From: a bacterium
GTDB taxonomy: Bacteria > 4484-113 > JAGGVC01
DNA: 56,569 bases
Direction of reading: 5' to 3'
Assembly: GCA_039961635.1 (NCBI GenBank)
Contig: JABRWB010000021.1
Coordinates: forward strand, 1-56,569
Under the pieces are notes generated by a model, which was not told the DNA's origin, did no database searches, and saw only the letters and a list, made by a program, of their open reading frames with translations. Position numbers and translations under genes: made by a program. Positions 15,676-52,842 of the stretch are shown piece after piece; the first letter of the stretch is position 1; every line of letters begins with the position of its first letter.

Positions 15676-17853
15676 CTAGTTTAGTAAATCCTCAATCCGC
15701 GGTCCCCACTCCTCTAATGCGACTTCCGGCGGATCACTTGCTCCGAGAATTGAGCCCGGAACGAACCACCGCGGAATCCCGTCGCGGTCAATCAGGTAGG
15801 ATTGAGGCAGAAAGTTGCCTGTTCCCTGATTGGCAAACAGCTCCTTGATCTTGTAGAAGGTTCCAGAGCTTGCGGCGTAGTTGTCGTCGTCCCACCAGTT
15901 CTCCTCGAACTTCTCTTCGGGATGGCCGTCGAGCCATGCCTTTGCCGAATTGTAACCGCCTGGATTGAACAACCCGTTAGGCACGAAGCCAAGGCCCTGA
16001 TATCCCTGAGACTGGTAAGTATCGTGCAACAAAATTAAGCCCGGCATTTCAACGTGGCACCACCCGCAGGTGTCACCCCAGAAATTGAACCATGTAACCT
16101 TGCCCTGCCTCCACGGCTCGTAAGGCGTATCGTTGCCACTCAAAAGCGACTTCTCCACAAACGCGGGGAAGTAGCCTACGCGGCCGTTCTTGTCAAGCAA
16201 CGCCTTTGTGGTGGTAACAATTATTTCGAATGTCGCGACCTGCTGATCCGATGTTGCGGGAACATCGACCGTACAGGTTGCGGTTATGTGGTTTGCTGCA
16301 CTGGGAGTTAGCGTCACAGCCGAGGAAGCGGTATTACCACCGAATGTGCCGGAGCCCGCAGTGATCGCCCATGTATAAGCCAACTCGCTTGGGTATTCCG
16401 CGTCGAGATTGGTTTTAACCGAGAGGTTAATCGTGTCGCTGGGCGAACCGTAATAAAGCGTCGTTGCCGGATTGAGCGTGATTGTCTGCGCAGAACCGGC
16501 GTCGTTTGTAATCGTGATATCTCTTGTCTGAAGCTTATCCGTAATCTCCAGAGCCGGAATCGGCGGCACGTCGTACCACGCCTGTGCGTTCACGATGTCG
16601 GACAGCGGGCCGTGCTGCTCCATCTGCGTCGCCGAATAGTTGATCGCCCAGATGGCGAAGTGGTGCGTCACGCCTTTCGCGCAATCCCCGATGTCCACGC
16701 TGGTCACATCGTTCGCGATGTTCTCGAAGCCCGGACATGCGACGAGGTTGCTTCCGTCGCCGCCGACCTGCCACCACAGCTTGTAGTGGTCAACCGTCGA
16801 GGGGTCGAGGCCTGTCCAGCTCACGCGGATGACGCCCTCGCCGAAGCTCTGGTCGCCCTGCGCGGTGAGGCCGGTAACCTTCGCGGGCGGATCCACGGGA
16901 ACCGGGCCGCCGCCGGTGCCGGCGATGTTGCTGATGATGCCCACGCTGCCGTCCGGGCCGACGGGCGCCGTGCTGAACGATTCTTCGTCTTCCGGAGCAA
17001 GCGTGTAGTTCACGGTGTAAGTCACCGGCCTGTCGCCGGGCACGACAGCCGGGCGGTCGACCGTGTAAGGCGAGCCGGGGTTCGACTCGTTCGGTATCAT
17101 CGCCCAGGAAGTGCCGCGCAGGACGTTCACCTTGTAGCCCGCGATAGCGTTCTGGAAGTTCAGCGCGATCTGGGTTATGTCGGAGACGCCGATTTCGCCG
17201 TTCTTGTCGCCGTCCACAAGCGAGAGGATCTGGCCGCTGGCCACTCCGAAGTTGAGCGCGATCGGGGTGATGTCCGCCACGCCTACTTCGCCGTTGTTGT
17301 CGTAGTCGCCGACATTTCGTTCGGTCCACGTCAACGTCGCCTGGCCGTCGACAATTATCGCGGCGAGATTGGTCACCTTGTTGTCGGGACTCGTCGGCGC
17401 GAGCCCGCTGACGCTGCGTCCCGCGTAGGCGCGGCCCTCGAAGTGCGCCCTGGCGACGACTCCACTGGCGGTTCCCACGGGATCGCCCGCGTTGCGAATG
17501 CGGCTGGTGCCGATATCGACGCGGCCCGGCCGGTCGGTGACCGCCAGGTCCACGCTCTCGCCCAGCGCGCCGGCGAACGTCACGGCGCCCGGCGTGTAGC
17601 GCGTCGCGTCGTAGACGATGCCGAACAGGAACTCGTCCGCCCGGACTTCGCCCCGCGTGGATACGGTCAAGTCAACGCCGCCCGCGGAGGGAGACGCCGC
17701 TAGATCGAGGGGCAGCGCCGAGCCGTCCCTTAGGTTGACGAGAGAAAAGCCGCCGTCCGCCTCGGGCGAAGGAGCCTGCATAGAGCCGCCCCTGCTGCAG
17801 GCGAACGCAGCGGCAAGCGATAGGATAAGTACGACCAACAATGCGTTTCTCAC
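15676..17853 (-). CDS. Lipoprotein with cohesin-like, dockerin, FN3/Ig-like and TlpA-like thioredoxin domains (Cys form)
   Basis: This 725-residue surface lipoprotein has a signal peptide with lipobox AFAC (Cys19). Residues about 45-160 form a cohesin-like beta-sandwich ('EFLFGIVYDATRYTPGAVTF'). Residues about 178-235 hold two dockerin-type calcium loops, DYDNNGEVGVAD and DGDKNGEIGVSD, each followed by 'ITxIALNF'. FN3-like ('VIRVSWTGLDPSTVDHYKLW') and Ig-like segments follow. The last 150 residues are a TlpA/ResA-like thioredoxin domain: 'VTWFNFWGDTCGWCHVEMPG' with C596/C599, and 'LPQSYLIDRDG' carrying the expected cis-Pro loop. The start is GTG 17853, because AAGGAG lies 7 bases upstream and the signal peptide begins there. 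It is a tandem paralog of the selenoprotein at 18215-20275. A role in extracytoplasmic thiol redox chemistry on a scaffold is inferred. Confidence 0.82.
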   Translation of the reverse strand: MRNALLVVLILSLAAAFACSRGGSMQAPSPEADGGFSLVNLRDGSALPLDLAASPSAGGVDLTVSTRGEVRADEFLFGIVYDATRYTPGAVTFAGALGESVDLAVTDRPGRVDIGTSRIRNAGDPVGTASGVVARAHFEGRAYAGRSVSGLAPTSPDNKVTNLAAIIVDGQATLTWTERNVGDYDNNGEVGVADITPIALNFGVASGQILSLVDGDKNGEIGVSDITQIALNFQNAIAGYKVNVLRGTSWAMIPNESNPGSPYTVDRPAVVPGDRPVTYTVNYTLAPEDEESFSTAPVGPDGSVGIISNIAGTGGGPVPVDPPAKVTGLTAQGDQSFGEGVIRVSWTGLDPSTVDHYKLWWQVGGDGSNLVACPGFENIANDVTSVDIGDCAKGVTHHFAIWAINYSATQMEQHGPLSDIVNAQAWYDVPPIPALEITDKLQTRDITITNDAGSAQTITLNPATTLYYGSPSDTINLSVKTNLDAEYPSELAYTWAITAGSGTFGGNTASSAVTLTPSAANHITATCTVDVPATSDQQVATFEIIVTTTKALLDKNGRVGYFPAFVEKSLLSGNDTPYEPWRQGKVTWFNFWGDTCGWCHVEMPGLILLHDTYQSQGYQGLGFVPNGLFNPGGYNSAKAWLDGHPEEKFEENWWDDDNYAASSGTFYKIKELFANQGTGNFLPQSYLIDRDGIPRWFVPGSILGASDPPEVALEEWGPRIEDLLN

Positions 17854-18161
17854 TGCTTCACTCCTTGGTTTTGATTGCCAAGGGGCCCGCCCCCGGGGCA
17901 CCCGATAAAGGTACACATTAAAGTAAGGCATATACAGAATACCAGTTTTCCGAATGCAATGCAAGAGATCAGGTCGAAAAACGGCTTGAAATCAGAAAAA
18001 GTGCCTATGGAAGTGACCGGCAGGTCAGCGGACGGCATGCGGGTATTGCGGGGGGGGCGGATTGCCATAAACCGGGGCAAAGCGCGCGTTGCGAACGGCC
18101 ATCCACTCCTGCGGATCAACGTTTACTAATCATTTCCCCGATAAATTACTTAAATAATTCC
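17854..18161. other. Intergenic region between the two paralogous lipoprotein genes
   Basis: This region of about 300 bases must contain the promoter of the Cys-type paralog and its AAGGAG ribosome binding site (17860-17865). It also holds a GC-rich run near 17881-17900 and a G-run (18051-18057). I see no coding potential, no clear -10/-35 pair and no RNA family that I recognise. Confidence 0.5.
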
Positions 18162-18190
18162 AAAAAAAAGGACGCCCCGAAGGGCGTCCT
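18162..18190 (-). terminator. Rho-independent terminator of the selenoprotein gene
   Basis: On the minus strand a perfect 9-bp stem (18169-18177 with 18182-18190) with a TTCG loop is followed by a T run ending at 18162. It starts 25 bases after the TAA at 18215-18217. No comparable terminator follows the internal TGA at 18542-18544, which supports translation through that TGA. Confidence 0.93.
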
Positions 18191-18214
18191 TAGATTTGCT
18201 TGACGAATCTGGTT

Positions 18215-20275
18215 TTACTGGAAATTCTCGCCTAGCAATTCCTCGATTGCGGCGCGGAATTCCGCGTCGGGAGGATTGCCGCCGAGTCTTGCCTTGCGGC
18301 AAGTGCCATCGCGATCTAGCAAGTAGGTCTGCGGAATTCCGGTGGAACCGCCCACCCAATCGTTGTATGCATTCAGCACACCCGACGCGAAATACAAATC
18401 CGTCCATGTGTACGAATTCGTTTCGTAGAAATTCCAGTTCTGGTCCTTGCTGTCCTCGCAAACTTCGATCTGGTAGTAGCCCTGCGCGTTGTAATCGTCA
18501 TACCAAGCTTGAAAAGTGGGGAACTCCCCGACGCAGTAACCTCACCAGTAGCTCCAGAAGTTGAGCAGGATTACCTTTTGATCGTCCGCCCATTCCGCGA
18601 ACTGGTGGTTGGGTCCATGCACGTAGCTTTCGCCGGTGAACAACCAGTTGGGGCCGAGGACGAAAACATTGCTGTTGTTAAAGTTGCCGCCTACAGGCGC
18701 CATCGTCGTTCCGATTATAGATGCGCTTGCAGTATGCTGGTGCAACGTATCGTCAACCGTCACCTCGAATGTGGCGGTTGTTTTGCCCGTCACACCGGCG
18801 CTTATCGAGCGCGAAGTGGAAGAGCCGATAATCGAGCCGTTGCCCGACTTGACCGTCCACGTGAAGGTCAGGTACTGCTCGAATTCGGTTCCGTCATGCG
18901 AAGTTTGCACCGAGATGTTCGCTGTTTCGGACGGCATAATCGTTGTCCTGTCGCGCGTGAATCCCGTAATCGTGAAATCCGGAATCGGCGGGACGTCATA
19001 CCATGCCTGCGCGCTTACGATGTCGGACAGCGGGCCGTGCTGCTCAATCTGGTTTTCGTTGAAGTTGCAAGCCCATATTGCGAACCAGTATGTCACTCCG
19101 CGTTCGCAGTCCGGAATATCCACCGTCGTCGTGCTTGCGGAAATGTTGTCAAATCCCGGGCAAGCCACCAACTGGGTGCCGTCGCCGCCTTCCTGCCACC
19201 ACAGCTTGTAGTGGTCGAGGTAAGGATCGGTGCTTGCATCCCAGTTGAGGCGGATGACGCCCTCGCCGTACGATTCATCGCCGGCCGCGCTCATTCCTGT
19301 GACCTTTGGAGGAATCGGGATCGGCTCCGGGCCGCCGCCTGTAGTGTTTGATGCAACGCCGACAGTGCCGTTCGGACAAATCGGCATGGTGTTGAAGCTT
19401 TCCTCATCCGTGGGTTCCAAAGTGTAATTGAACGTGTAAGTAACCGGCCGGTCATTGGGAACAATTGTAGGACGATCCACCGTCCACTGCGAGCCGGGAT
19501 TGACAGGATTAGGAATTGCGACAAAAGATGCGCCGCGCTTGACGTTTACCCGGTATCCGGCGATCGCGTTTTGATAATGCGTGGCAATCGGCGTGATATC
19601 CGATACGCCGATTTCGCCGTTTTTGTCACCGTCAACAAGCGATAGAATTTGGCCAGATGCCACGCCGTAGTTGATCGCGATTGGCGTGATATCCGAGACG
19701 CCGACTTCGCCGTTGTTGTCGTAGTCACCGCAGTTCTTTTCGGTCCATGACAATGTTGCTTGACCGTCCACGACAACCGCAGCAAGATTAACTTTGTTTT
19801 CCGGCCCAAGCGGAGCTTGGCTTGCACGTCTGCGGACGCAGGATTCGCGCGCGAAGTGGATACGAACGATGTCGCCGCGAACGCTGATTCCTGCATCTTC
19901 TCTGTTCCGAATACGGCTTGTGCCCACGTCAACGCATCCGGGCACGTCGGTGATCGCGATATCCACGCTCTTGCCCATTGCGCCAGTGAATTCGACGTTC
20001 TTCGGGTTGAACCTCGAGGCGTCGTAATTCAACTTGAAGAAGATTTCATTTGTCGTCACCTCCGATGTGGAAACGGTGACAACGACTCCCGACGACGATT
20101 CCTCCACGCCCGCGGCAAGCGGCAGCTTGGACGGCGATCCGCTTTGATCAATTAAGAACGCAAGCGAGCCTCCGCCGTAACTCATATTGACGTTACGTTC
20201 GGAGCCGCCGCAGGCCGTGAGTGCAAGGAAAAGCACTATAAAGACCCACAATGCAACGATACGCAATTCCTTCAC
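18215..20275 (-). CDS. Selenoprotein: cohesin-like/dockerin/TlpA-like thioredoxin lipoprotein with Sec at the redox centre
   Basis: Read with the TGA at 18544-18542 as selenocysteine, this is a 686-residue lipoprotein (lipobox LTAC, Cys22). It has the same domain order as its neighbour: cohesin-like region, dockerin loops DYDNNGEVGVSD and DGDKNGEIGVSD (near 181-230), FN3-like ('VIRLNWDASTDPYLDHYKLW') and Ig-like domains. The C-terminal thioredoxin domain reads 'VILLNFWSYW-U-GYCVGEFP', so Sec578 and Cys581 align exactly with C596/C599 (CGWC) of the paralog. The frame stays open for 108 codons after the TGA with clear TlpA features ('STGIPQTYLLDRDG'). It stops at TAA 18215, 25 bases before a terminator. 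A SECIS-like hairpin follows the TGA. Conventional gene calling would truncate it at 18542 and miss the active domain. The start GTG 20275 has AAGGA upstream. The alternative explanation is a Cys-to-stop mutation or sequencing error. Confidence 0.85.
18516..18544 (-). promoter_or_regulatory. Candidate bacterial SECIS element with its UGA codon
   Basis: The UGA occupies 18544-18542. On the minus strand a GGGG/CCCC stem (18529-18526 with 18521-18518) carries the tetraloop AGUU. It is extended below by a GU/AC pair (18532-18531 with 18517-18516) across one bulged C. The loop begins 17 nt after the UGA and has G as its second base. This fits the published bacterial SECIS pattern (loop 16-37 nt downstream, G among its first two bases). 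Binding by SelB is inferred. Confidence 0.72.
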
Positions 20276-51605: not shown

Positions 51606-52649
51606 TCAGCAAATACGCGGCAGCAAATCGCCCGTTAGAACATCCACAATGCGGCTTCCGCCGATTTCGGTTTCAAGTAAGACCCGCGGCGTTTGCGACG
51701 CATCCGTTTTCCGGACGACCTCACCGATTATCGCCGCCTCCCTGCCCTGCCTGTGGCTTTTCAGCGCATCGAGCGCACTTGCTACGGAATCCGCGTCGTC
51801 TTCGACGAAGAACACGCACTTGCCCTCGTTCGCAAGGTGGAGCACATCGTATCCGAGCAGATCGCACGCGCCGCGGACTTTGTCCAAAACCGGTATTGCG
51901 GATTCCGAAATCCGGATATCAACTTGGCTGGCTGCGGCGATTTCGTTAAGTACGCTTGCAAGCCCGCCGCGCGTCGGATCGCGCATTGCTTTCACCTTGC
52001 GGGGCGCGGCCGCGAGTACCGCGCCGATCATCTCCGCCAGCGGCGCGCAATCGGATTCGACCTGCCCGGCGAATGACAGCCCCTCGCGCACCGCCGCAAT
52101 CGCTATCGAATGTTCGCCCAGCGTTCCGCTTAGAATTATCTTTTGACCGGGCGCCGCCAGGTGCGGGCCGACTTCGACGCCTTCGGGAACCGCGCCGATC
52201 CCGCTCGTGTTGATGAATATTCCGTCGGCCGCGCCGCGGTCCACCACTTTCGTGTCGCCCGTGACGATTCGCACTCCGGCTTCGCGCGCGACCGCCGCCG
52301 CGCCGTCCAAATATTCGCCCAGTTCCGCGGTCGGCAACCCTTCTTCGATCACGAGTGCGAGCGATATGACGGCGGGGCGCGCCCCCATCACGGCGAGATC
52401 GTTCACCGTGCCGCAAACCGCGAGCTTGCCGATGTCCCCGCCGGGAAACCGCCGCGGTGAAACGACATAGCTGTCCGTCGTGAAAACAATACGCCCGCCC
52501 GCCGCAAGCCCGATGTCGTCGGGCGAAAGCACCGCGCCGTCCGCGAGCATCGCCGGATCCTGACCGCCCAGCCGCGAGATGATGAACGCGTGCAGCCTGT
52601 GGGAGAGCAACCCTCCCGCTCCGTGCGCAAGCCTTATCCGGTCTTCCAT
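51606..52649 (-). CDS. hypE: Hydrogenase maturation factor HypE
   Basis: This 347-residue PurM-like ATPase makes the cyanide ligand of NiFe-hydrogenase from carbamoyl phosphate with HypF. Typical segments are IRLAHGAGGLLSHRLHAFII, 'VFTTDSYVVSPRRFPGGDIG', 'AVCGTVNDLAVMGARPAVIS' and 'VRIVTGDTKVVDRGAADGIF'. The C terminus ends in PRIC, whose terminal Cys carries the thiocarbamate in HypE. That ending also separates it from the related SelD. No other hyp or hydrogenase genes are nearby. ATG 52649 lies 7 bases after TAAAAT with no ribosome binding site. Confidence 0.95.
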   Translation of the reverse strand: MEDRIRLAHGAGGLLSHRLHAFIISRLGGQDPAMLADGAVLSPDDIGLAAGGRIVFTTDSYVVSPRRFPGGDIGKLAVCGTVNDLAVMGARPAVISLALVIEEGLPTAELGEYLDGAAAVAREAGVRIVTGDTKVVDRGAADGIFINTSGIGAVPEGVEVGPHLAAPGQKIILSGTLGEHSIAIAAVREGLSFAGQVESDCAPLAEMIGAVLAAAPRKVKAMRDPTRGGLASVLNEIAAASQVDIRISESAIPVLDKVRGACDLLGYDVLHLANEGKCVFFVEDDADSVASALDALKSHRQGREAAIIGEVVRKTDASQTPRVLLETEIGGSRIVDVLTGDLLPRIC

Positions 52650-52656
52650 CGTGGAG

Positions 52657-52662
52657 ATTTTA
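52657..52662 (-). promoter_or_regulatory. -10 element next to hypE start (leaderless type)
   Basis: On the minus strand, TAAAAT ends 7 bases before ATG 52649. Confidence 0.55.
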
Positions 52663-52677
52663 TGCCATCGGGCAATG

Positions 52678-52702
52678 CGCGGGCAACGGCGCAGTGCCCG
52701 CG
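52678..52702. repeat. 8-bp-stem hairpin between hypE and kinase genes
   Basis: CGCGGGCA (52678-52685) pairs with TGCCCGCG (52695-52702) across a 9-base loop. It has no T-tract on either strand. It lies between the kinase stop and the hypE start and may be a member of the genomic palindrome family. Confidence 0.4.
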
Positions 52703-52842
52703 ATCATAGCCCAGAGTACGCTTTGGCCGATTGAGTTATTCAACCGCTGGAACCGACGTATTCCGAAATCACAACGGCGCTGCCAGACGGCAGGGGTGAG
52801 CTGGAATTGAGCGAAACGCTTTTATCCATTGCCGGATGGCTG

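Follow-up and report, generated by a model that had tools for sequence, protein, structure and literature searches.

Selenocysteine (Sec)-containing TlpA-like proteins are already known, since the inventory of prokaryotic selenoproteins includes cd02966 UxxC, cd02966 UGC and PF08534 UxxC proteins (PMC13188914). One of them is a thiol-disulfide isomerase-like selenoprotein of the Sargasso Sea set (cd02966, PMC13188914 Table 1), and another is the Redoxin family selenoprotein (PF08534, UxxC, the same table). The Cys-type TlpA proteins ResA, StoA and CcmG (DsbE) work in an extracytoplasmic setting with a cysteine at the first active-site position.

Here we analysed a 56,569-nt stretch of bacterial DNA, hereafter the window. 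The product of its minus-strand gene at 18215–20275 is very probably a redox protein of the cell envelope, with an active-site selenocysteine at a codon annotated as a stop. The preliminary description called it a new selenoprotein, which is too strong given the inventoried TlpA-like (cd02966) UxxC proteins (PMC13188914). The protein shares with the cd02966 example a TlpA-like fold assignment and the Sec placed first in UxxC. With the Redoxin example it shares the clan and the motif, and it and several homologues match PF08534 weakly, although it scores better on AhpC-TSA (PF00578).

The reading frame and its internal TGA

The gene (18215–20275, minus strand) encodes 686 residues, numbered here from the GTG at 20275 that was proposed in the preliminary description, with TTG 20263 as an alternative start. 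The TGA at 18544–18542 is codon 578 and the first residue of a U-G-Y-C motif (WUGYC; U578-G-Y-C581), that is, a UxxC with Sec first. As described earlier, the same minus-strand frame continues for 108 sense codons from this TGA to the TAA at 18217–18215.

Such an open run has a chance probability of about 0.009 given the base composition and is not decisive alone. The stretch downstream of the TGA follows the codon usage of the window genes only in the Sec frame (+0.205 log-units per codon), the five other frames all scoring negative. Used as the sole query, this stretch retrieves TlpA homologues (L052, E=2.7e-14). A strong intrinsic terminator with a 10-bp stem and a T-run is located at 18168–18191 on the minus strand, just beyond the distal TAA, where the earlier reader had also placed it.

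These observations bear on the possibility that the TGA is a true stop, so that the protein ends before its active site and the sequence beyond, inherited from a Cys ancestor, is decaying. The change from TGC or TGT to TGA needs just one base, and the truncated scaffold would resemble many dockerin-like scaffold proteins of the host genome. However, coding statistics and homology persist downstream, the terminator sits past the distal stop, the host has Sec machinery and many independent homologues carry TGA at the same codon. A true stop is thus very improbable.

TGA otherwise serves as an ordinary stop, in agreement with the preliminary description: it ends 10 other long ORFs in a set of 31 from the window, not counting the truncated ORF of the selenoprotein gene. 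Among the 75 matches to its protein in the host genome, only this gene contains an internal TGA. Therefore, a global code change is excluded. Local readthrough of UGA as Trp, Gly or a near-cognate amino acid has a negligible probability, as TGA terminates those other ORFs and the internal TGAs occur at the catalytic Cys/Sec positions of Sec-type enzymes. With Sec at this codon, the standard annotation ends the protein just upstream of the active site, and its activity would go unnoticed.

Selenocysteine machinery and homologues

The earlier proposal of a selenocysteine protein is supported by the Sec machinery, further selenoprotein genes and homologues with TGA or Cys. The host genome contains all four components: SelA (450.9 bits), SelD (350.6 bits) and SelB (249.3 bits) all score above the curated cut-offs, SelB only narrowly (against 242.25), and tRNA-Sec with the anticodon UCA scores 66.3 bits. 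In-frame TGAs are found also in the SelD gene (L018, G000:C47:1308-2291; SCAGUAGK) and in a formate-dehydrogenase-like (Fdh-alpha-like) gene (L231, G000:C1:41057-41800; ARIUHSP). Both are canonical Sec sites, so the case for Sec use by the host has more behind it than the TlpA gene.

A SelD-like match inside the window at 51867–52436 was rejected, being HypE and not SelD. This HypE (51609–52703, minus strand, 398.9 bits) is a sign of hydrogenase maturation in the host genome.

Homologues were surveyed in nine further class genomes, and independent ones carry TGA or Cys at the codon of residue 578. The TGA is present in long-type homologues of five genomes (G009, G006, G005, G002 and G004), with contig ends removing the upstream part in G006 and G004, and in short TlpAs of G007, G008 and G002. 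SelA was found in all seven class genomes with a U-TlpA, and tRNA-Sec in five of the seven. In the sister genus (G001), SelA and tRNA-Sec are present and the homologue ends at a contig end before the site, while neither SelA nor a match was found in G003.

A whole-protein search of the GTDB contigs found no relative, but a scan with the motif pattern FWxxWUxxCxxE(hydrophobic)P gave at least 120 matches. Among the matches listed, 82 U-TlpA motif matches at 80 loci, the frame stays open for 93 codons or more beyond the TGA in 77. Five matches were not counted, two in which the frame closes after 24 and 23 codons (L117 and L160) and three with the frame running off the locus (L129, L133 and L154).

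The genome that holds one U-TlpA with the motif WUPSC (L086, G039:C245) is 86% complete, and the searches there gave no SelA and no strong tRNA-Sec match. This case may reflect contigs absent from the assembly, a binning error or a real stop.

The active site also varies. A G004 locus (L091, G004:C14, minus strand, about base 363) has the motif DYCUSFPHSKEFP with an adjacent Cys-Sec pair, in which Sec is kept next to a Cys but no resolving Cys follows three residues later. A tree of 28 class TlpA domains requires 7 changes between Sec and Cys, and supported branches force at least 5 of them. Close neighbours within the class carry Sec, Cys or Cys-Sec at the same site, which makes them good material for studying the retention and loss of Sec.

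In a tandem cluster of scaffold-TlpA genes in G005 (L081, G005:C112:25000-38500), the Sec and Cys forms are intermixed. One of the three U sites of this genome lies 4 codons past a stop in its frame, so this copy is broken or mis-assembled.

The window gene has its own tandem Cys paralogue (15676–17964, minus strand), and the alignment confirms that its CGWC, with the first Cys codon at 16068–16066, takes the position of the TGA as described earlier. The paralogue does serve as a Cys counterpart at the aligned site but is not a simple Cys twin. The two scaffolds are 63% identical over residues 23–430 and 85% over residues 161–240, compared with 35% in the C-terminal catalytic half. On the tree, the TlpA domain of the paralogue has a long branch and groups with one G004 domain, apart from the Sec domain. 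Either the pair has undergone domain exchange or the catalytic half has changed much faster than the scaffold.

The Sec protein has five scaffold cysteines (residues 114, 146, 182, 300 and 403), none of which has a Cys at the aligned position of the paralogue. They could possibly form internal disulfides.

The hairpin downstream of the UGA

The bacterial SECIS model requires a loop of 3–9 nt, a stem of 4–16 bp, a G in the first two loop positions, a distance of 16–37 nt from the UGA and a minimum free energy of at most −7.5 kcal/mol (PMC13188914). A candidate hairpin at 18516–18532 on the minus strand (4+2 bp with a bulged C, −7.7 kcal/mol) has the loop AGUU at 18525–18522, starting 16 nt past the UGA. 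It falls within the model of PMC13188914 but is marginal on its own.

Indeed, the hairpin is weak in isolation, as 20% of synonymous shuffles of the window gene reach −7.5 kcal/mol at that spacing, and just 3 of its pairs fit the family register. The thermodynamic z-scores of the 31–55 nt after the UGA range from −0.86 to 0.57 and give no signal, so only the position-specific model and the homologue comparison carry weight.

Of 14 Sec genes taken from the class and from four other genomes, 12 carry a SECIS-like hairpin at 16–17 nt. The rate is 17.5% among 40 Cys homologues, and synonymous shuffles of those 14 genes yield such a hairpin in 29% of cases. The tandem Cys paralogue has no SECIS-like element at this model spacing. 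Pairing in the hairpin register of 93 Sec genes is 64.5%, against 42% in column shuffles with none of 500 as high, a contrast that sequence relatedness inflates. Fairer controls are the set of Cys homologues and the slid registers, and pairing is not raised in the adjoining registers of the same genes. The AGUU-loop hairpin 16 nt past the UGA is conserved with compensatory changes across the Sec genes.

The same comparison bears on an assembly or base-calling error, with a real TGC or TGT codon making an ordinary Cys TlpA. The source is a single draft genome of 100 contigs, in which such an error could arise. However, it would not recur at the same codon in independent class genomes and across phyla, nor would it place a SECIS-like hairpin at the distance set by the model. 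We consider this explanation extremely improbable.

Domain architecture, proposed function and known systems

The C-terminal domain (residues 540–686, 18218–18658, minus strand) is predicted to have a TlpA/ResA-like thioredoxin fold. The Pfam AhpC-TSA match spans residues 558–660 across the TGA (E 4.5e-9), and the AlphaFold2 model of the domain (pLDDT 83.6) finds ResA and relatives in Foldseek (TM 0.72–0.78). Hence, residue 578 is the first active-site position.

The upstream part, also on the minus strand, is modular. A signal peptide with the lipobox L-T-A-C22 following a hydrophobic stretch (20210–20275) is suggested by eye from the sequence. A cohesin-like module (19841–20098), a dockerin-like pair of DxDNNGxxxxxDxxxx repeats (19556–19738) and an Fn3/Ig-like segment (19001–19312) come next.

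These scaffold modules were assigned by homology to the class homologues, the Pfam search of the window protein itself giving no Cohesin or dockerin match. In the class homologues, Cohesin and fn3 score above the cut-off, Cohesin in L083 and L081, whereas PKD and Dockerin_1 score below it, the latter in an L081 homologue. The scaffold recurs at about 75 places in the host genome, with the dockerin-like repeats the most copied.

Taking the frame, the machinery and the U-homologues read in the sequence together with the predicted fold, we conclude with high confidence that the protein is a putatively exported scaffold lipoprotein with a C-terminal Sec-TlpA/ResA-like oxidoreductase, its UGA 578 decoded as Sec. 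We infer the actual Sec insertion, the location, the reaction direction and the substrate. The host SelA, SelB, SelD and tRNA-Sec would decode codon 578, as directed by the hairpin 16 nt downstream. The cohesin-like, dockerin-like and Fn3/Ig-like scaffold would then carry the thiol-disulfide oxidoreductase domain on the exported lipoprotein.

Sec would be the nucleophile of U-G-Y-C and Cys581 the resolving residue. The most likely role of the domain is to reduce disulfide bonds or oxidised thiols in proteins of the envelope or surface, a CcdA/DsbD-type membrane carrier presumably supplying the electrons. This substrate and donor are suggested by the fold and by the two DsbD/CcdA-family loci of the host genome.

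If this is true, Sec is used in large multidomain envelope proteins of a lineage that is represented here solely by draft genomes. The evidence is about evenly balanced on a wider reading, that of a lineage-specific modular family of cell-surface selenoproteins (lipobox, cohesin-like, dockerin-like, Fn3/Ig and Sec-TlpA). Its catalytic domain would have repeatedly switched between Sec and Cys, sometimes in tandem pairs and once to an adjacent Cys-Sec without the usual resolving Cys, and Sec chemistry would be displayed outside the cell on a cohesin/dockerin-type scaffold.

The window protein resembles ResA, StoA and CcmG in the predicted fold (TM 0.69–0.78), the active-site position and the proposed extracytoplasmic setting, but has Sec for the first Cys and a large scaffold in addition. 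The surface-exposed lipoprotein thioredoxins Etrx1 and Etrx2 of Streptococcus pneumoniae (4hqs and 4hqz) have the lipid-anchored extracellular TlpA-like fold that is proposed for it. Unlike it, they have a Cys-type active site and are not known to carry a cohesin/dockerin scaffold.

In contrast to the cd02966 selenoprotein, the window protein carries its domain on a putative lipoprotein scaffold of cohesin/dockerin-like and Fn3 modules, and the text of the inventory makes no mention of dockerin (PMC13188914). Our literature search on selenoprotein, dockerin and cohesin, which covered mainly openly accessible papers, found no report of Sec-TlpA on such a scaffold. A Sec-TlpA joined to a large surface protein of cohesin/dockerin-like type, an arrangement that recurs within an uncultivated lineage, is apparently undescribed so far. 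Compared with the known systems, what is new may be the architecture from the lipobox through the cohesin-like, dockerin-like and Fn3/Ig modules to Sec-TlpA, with the repeated Sec/Cys exchanges and one C-U variant.
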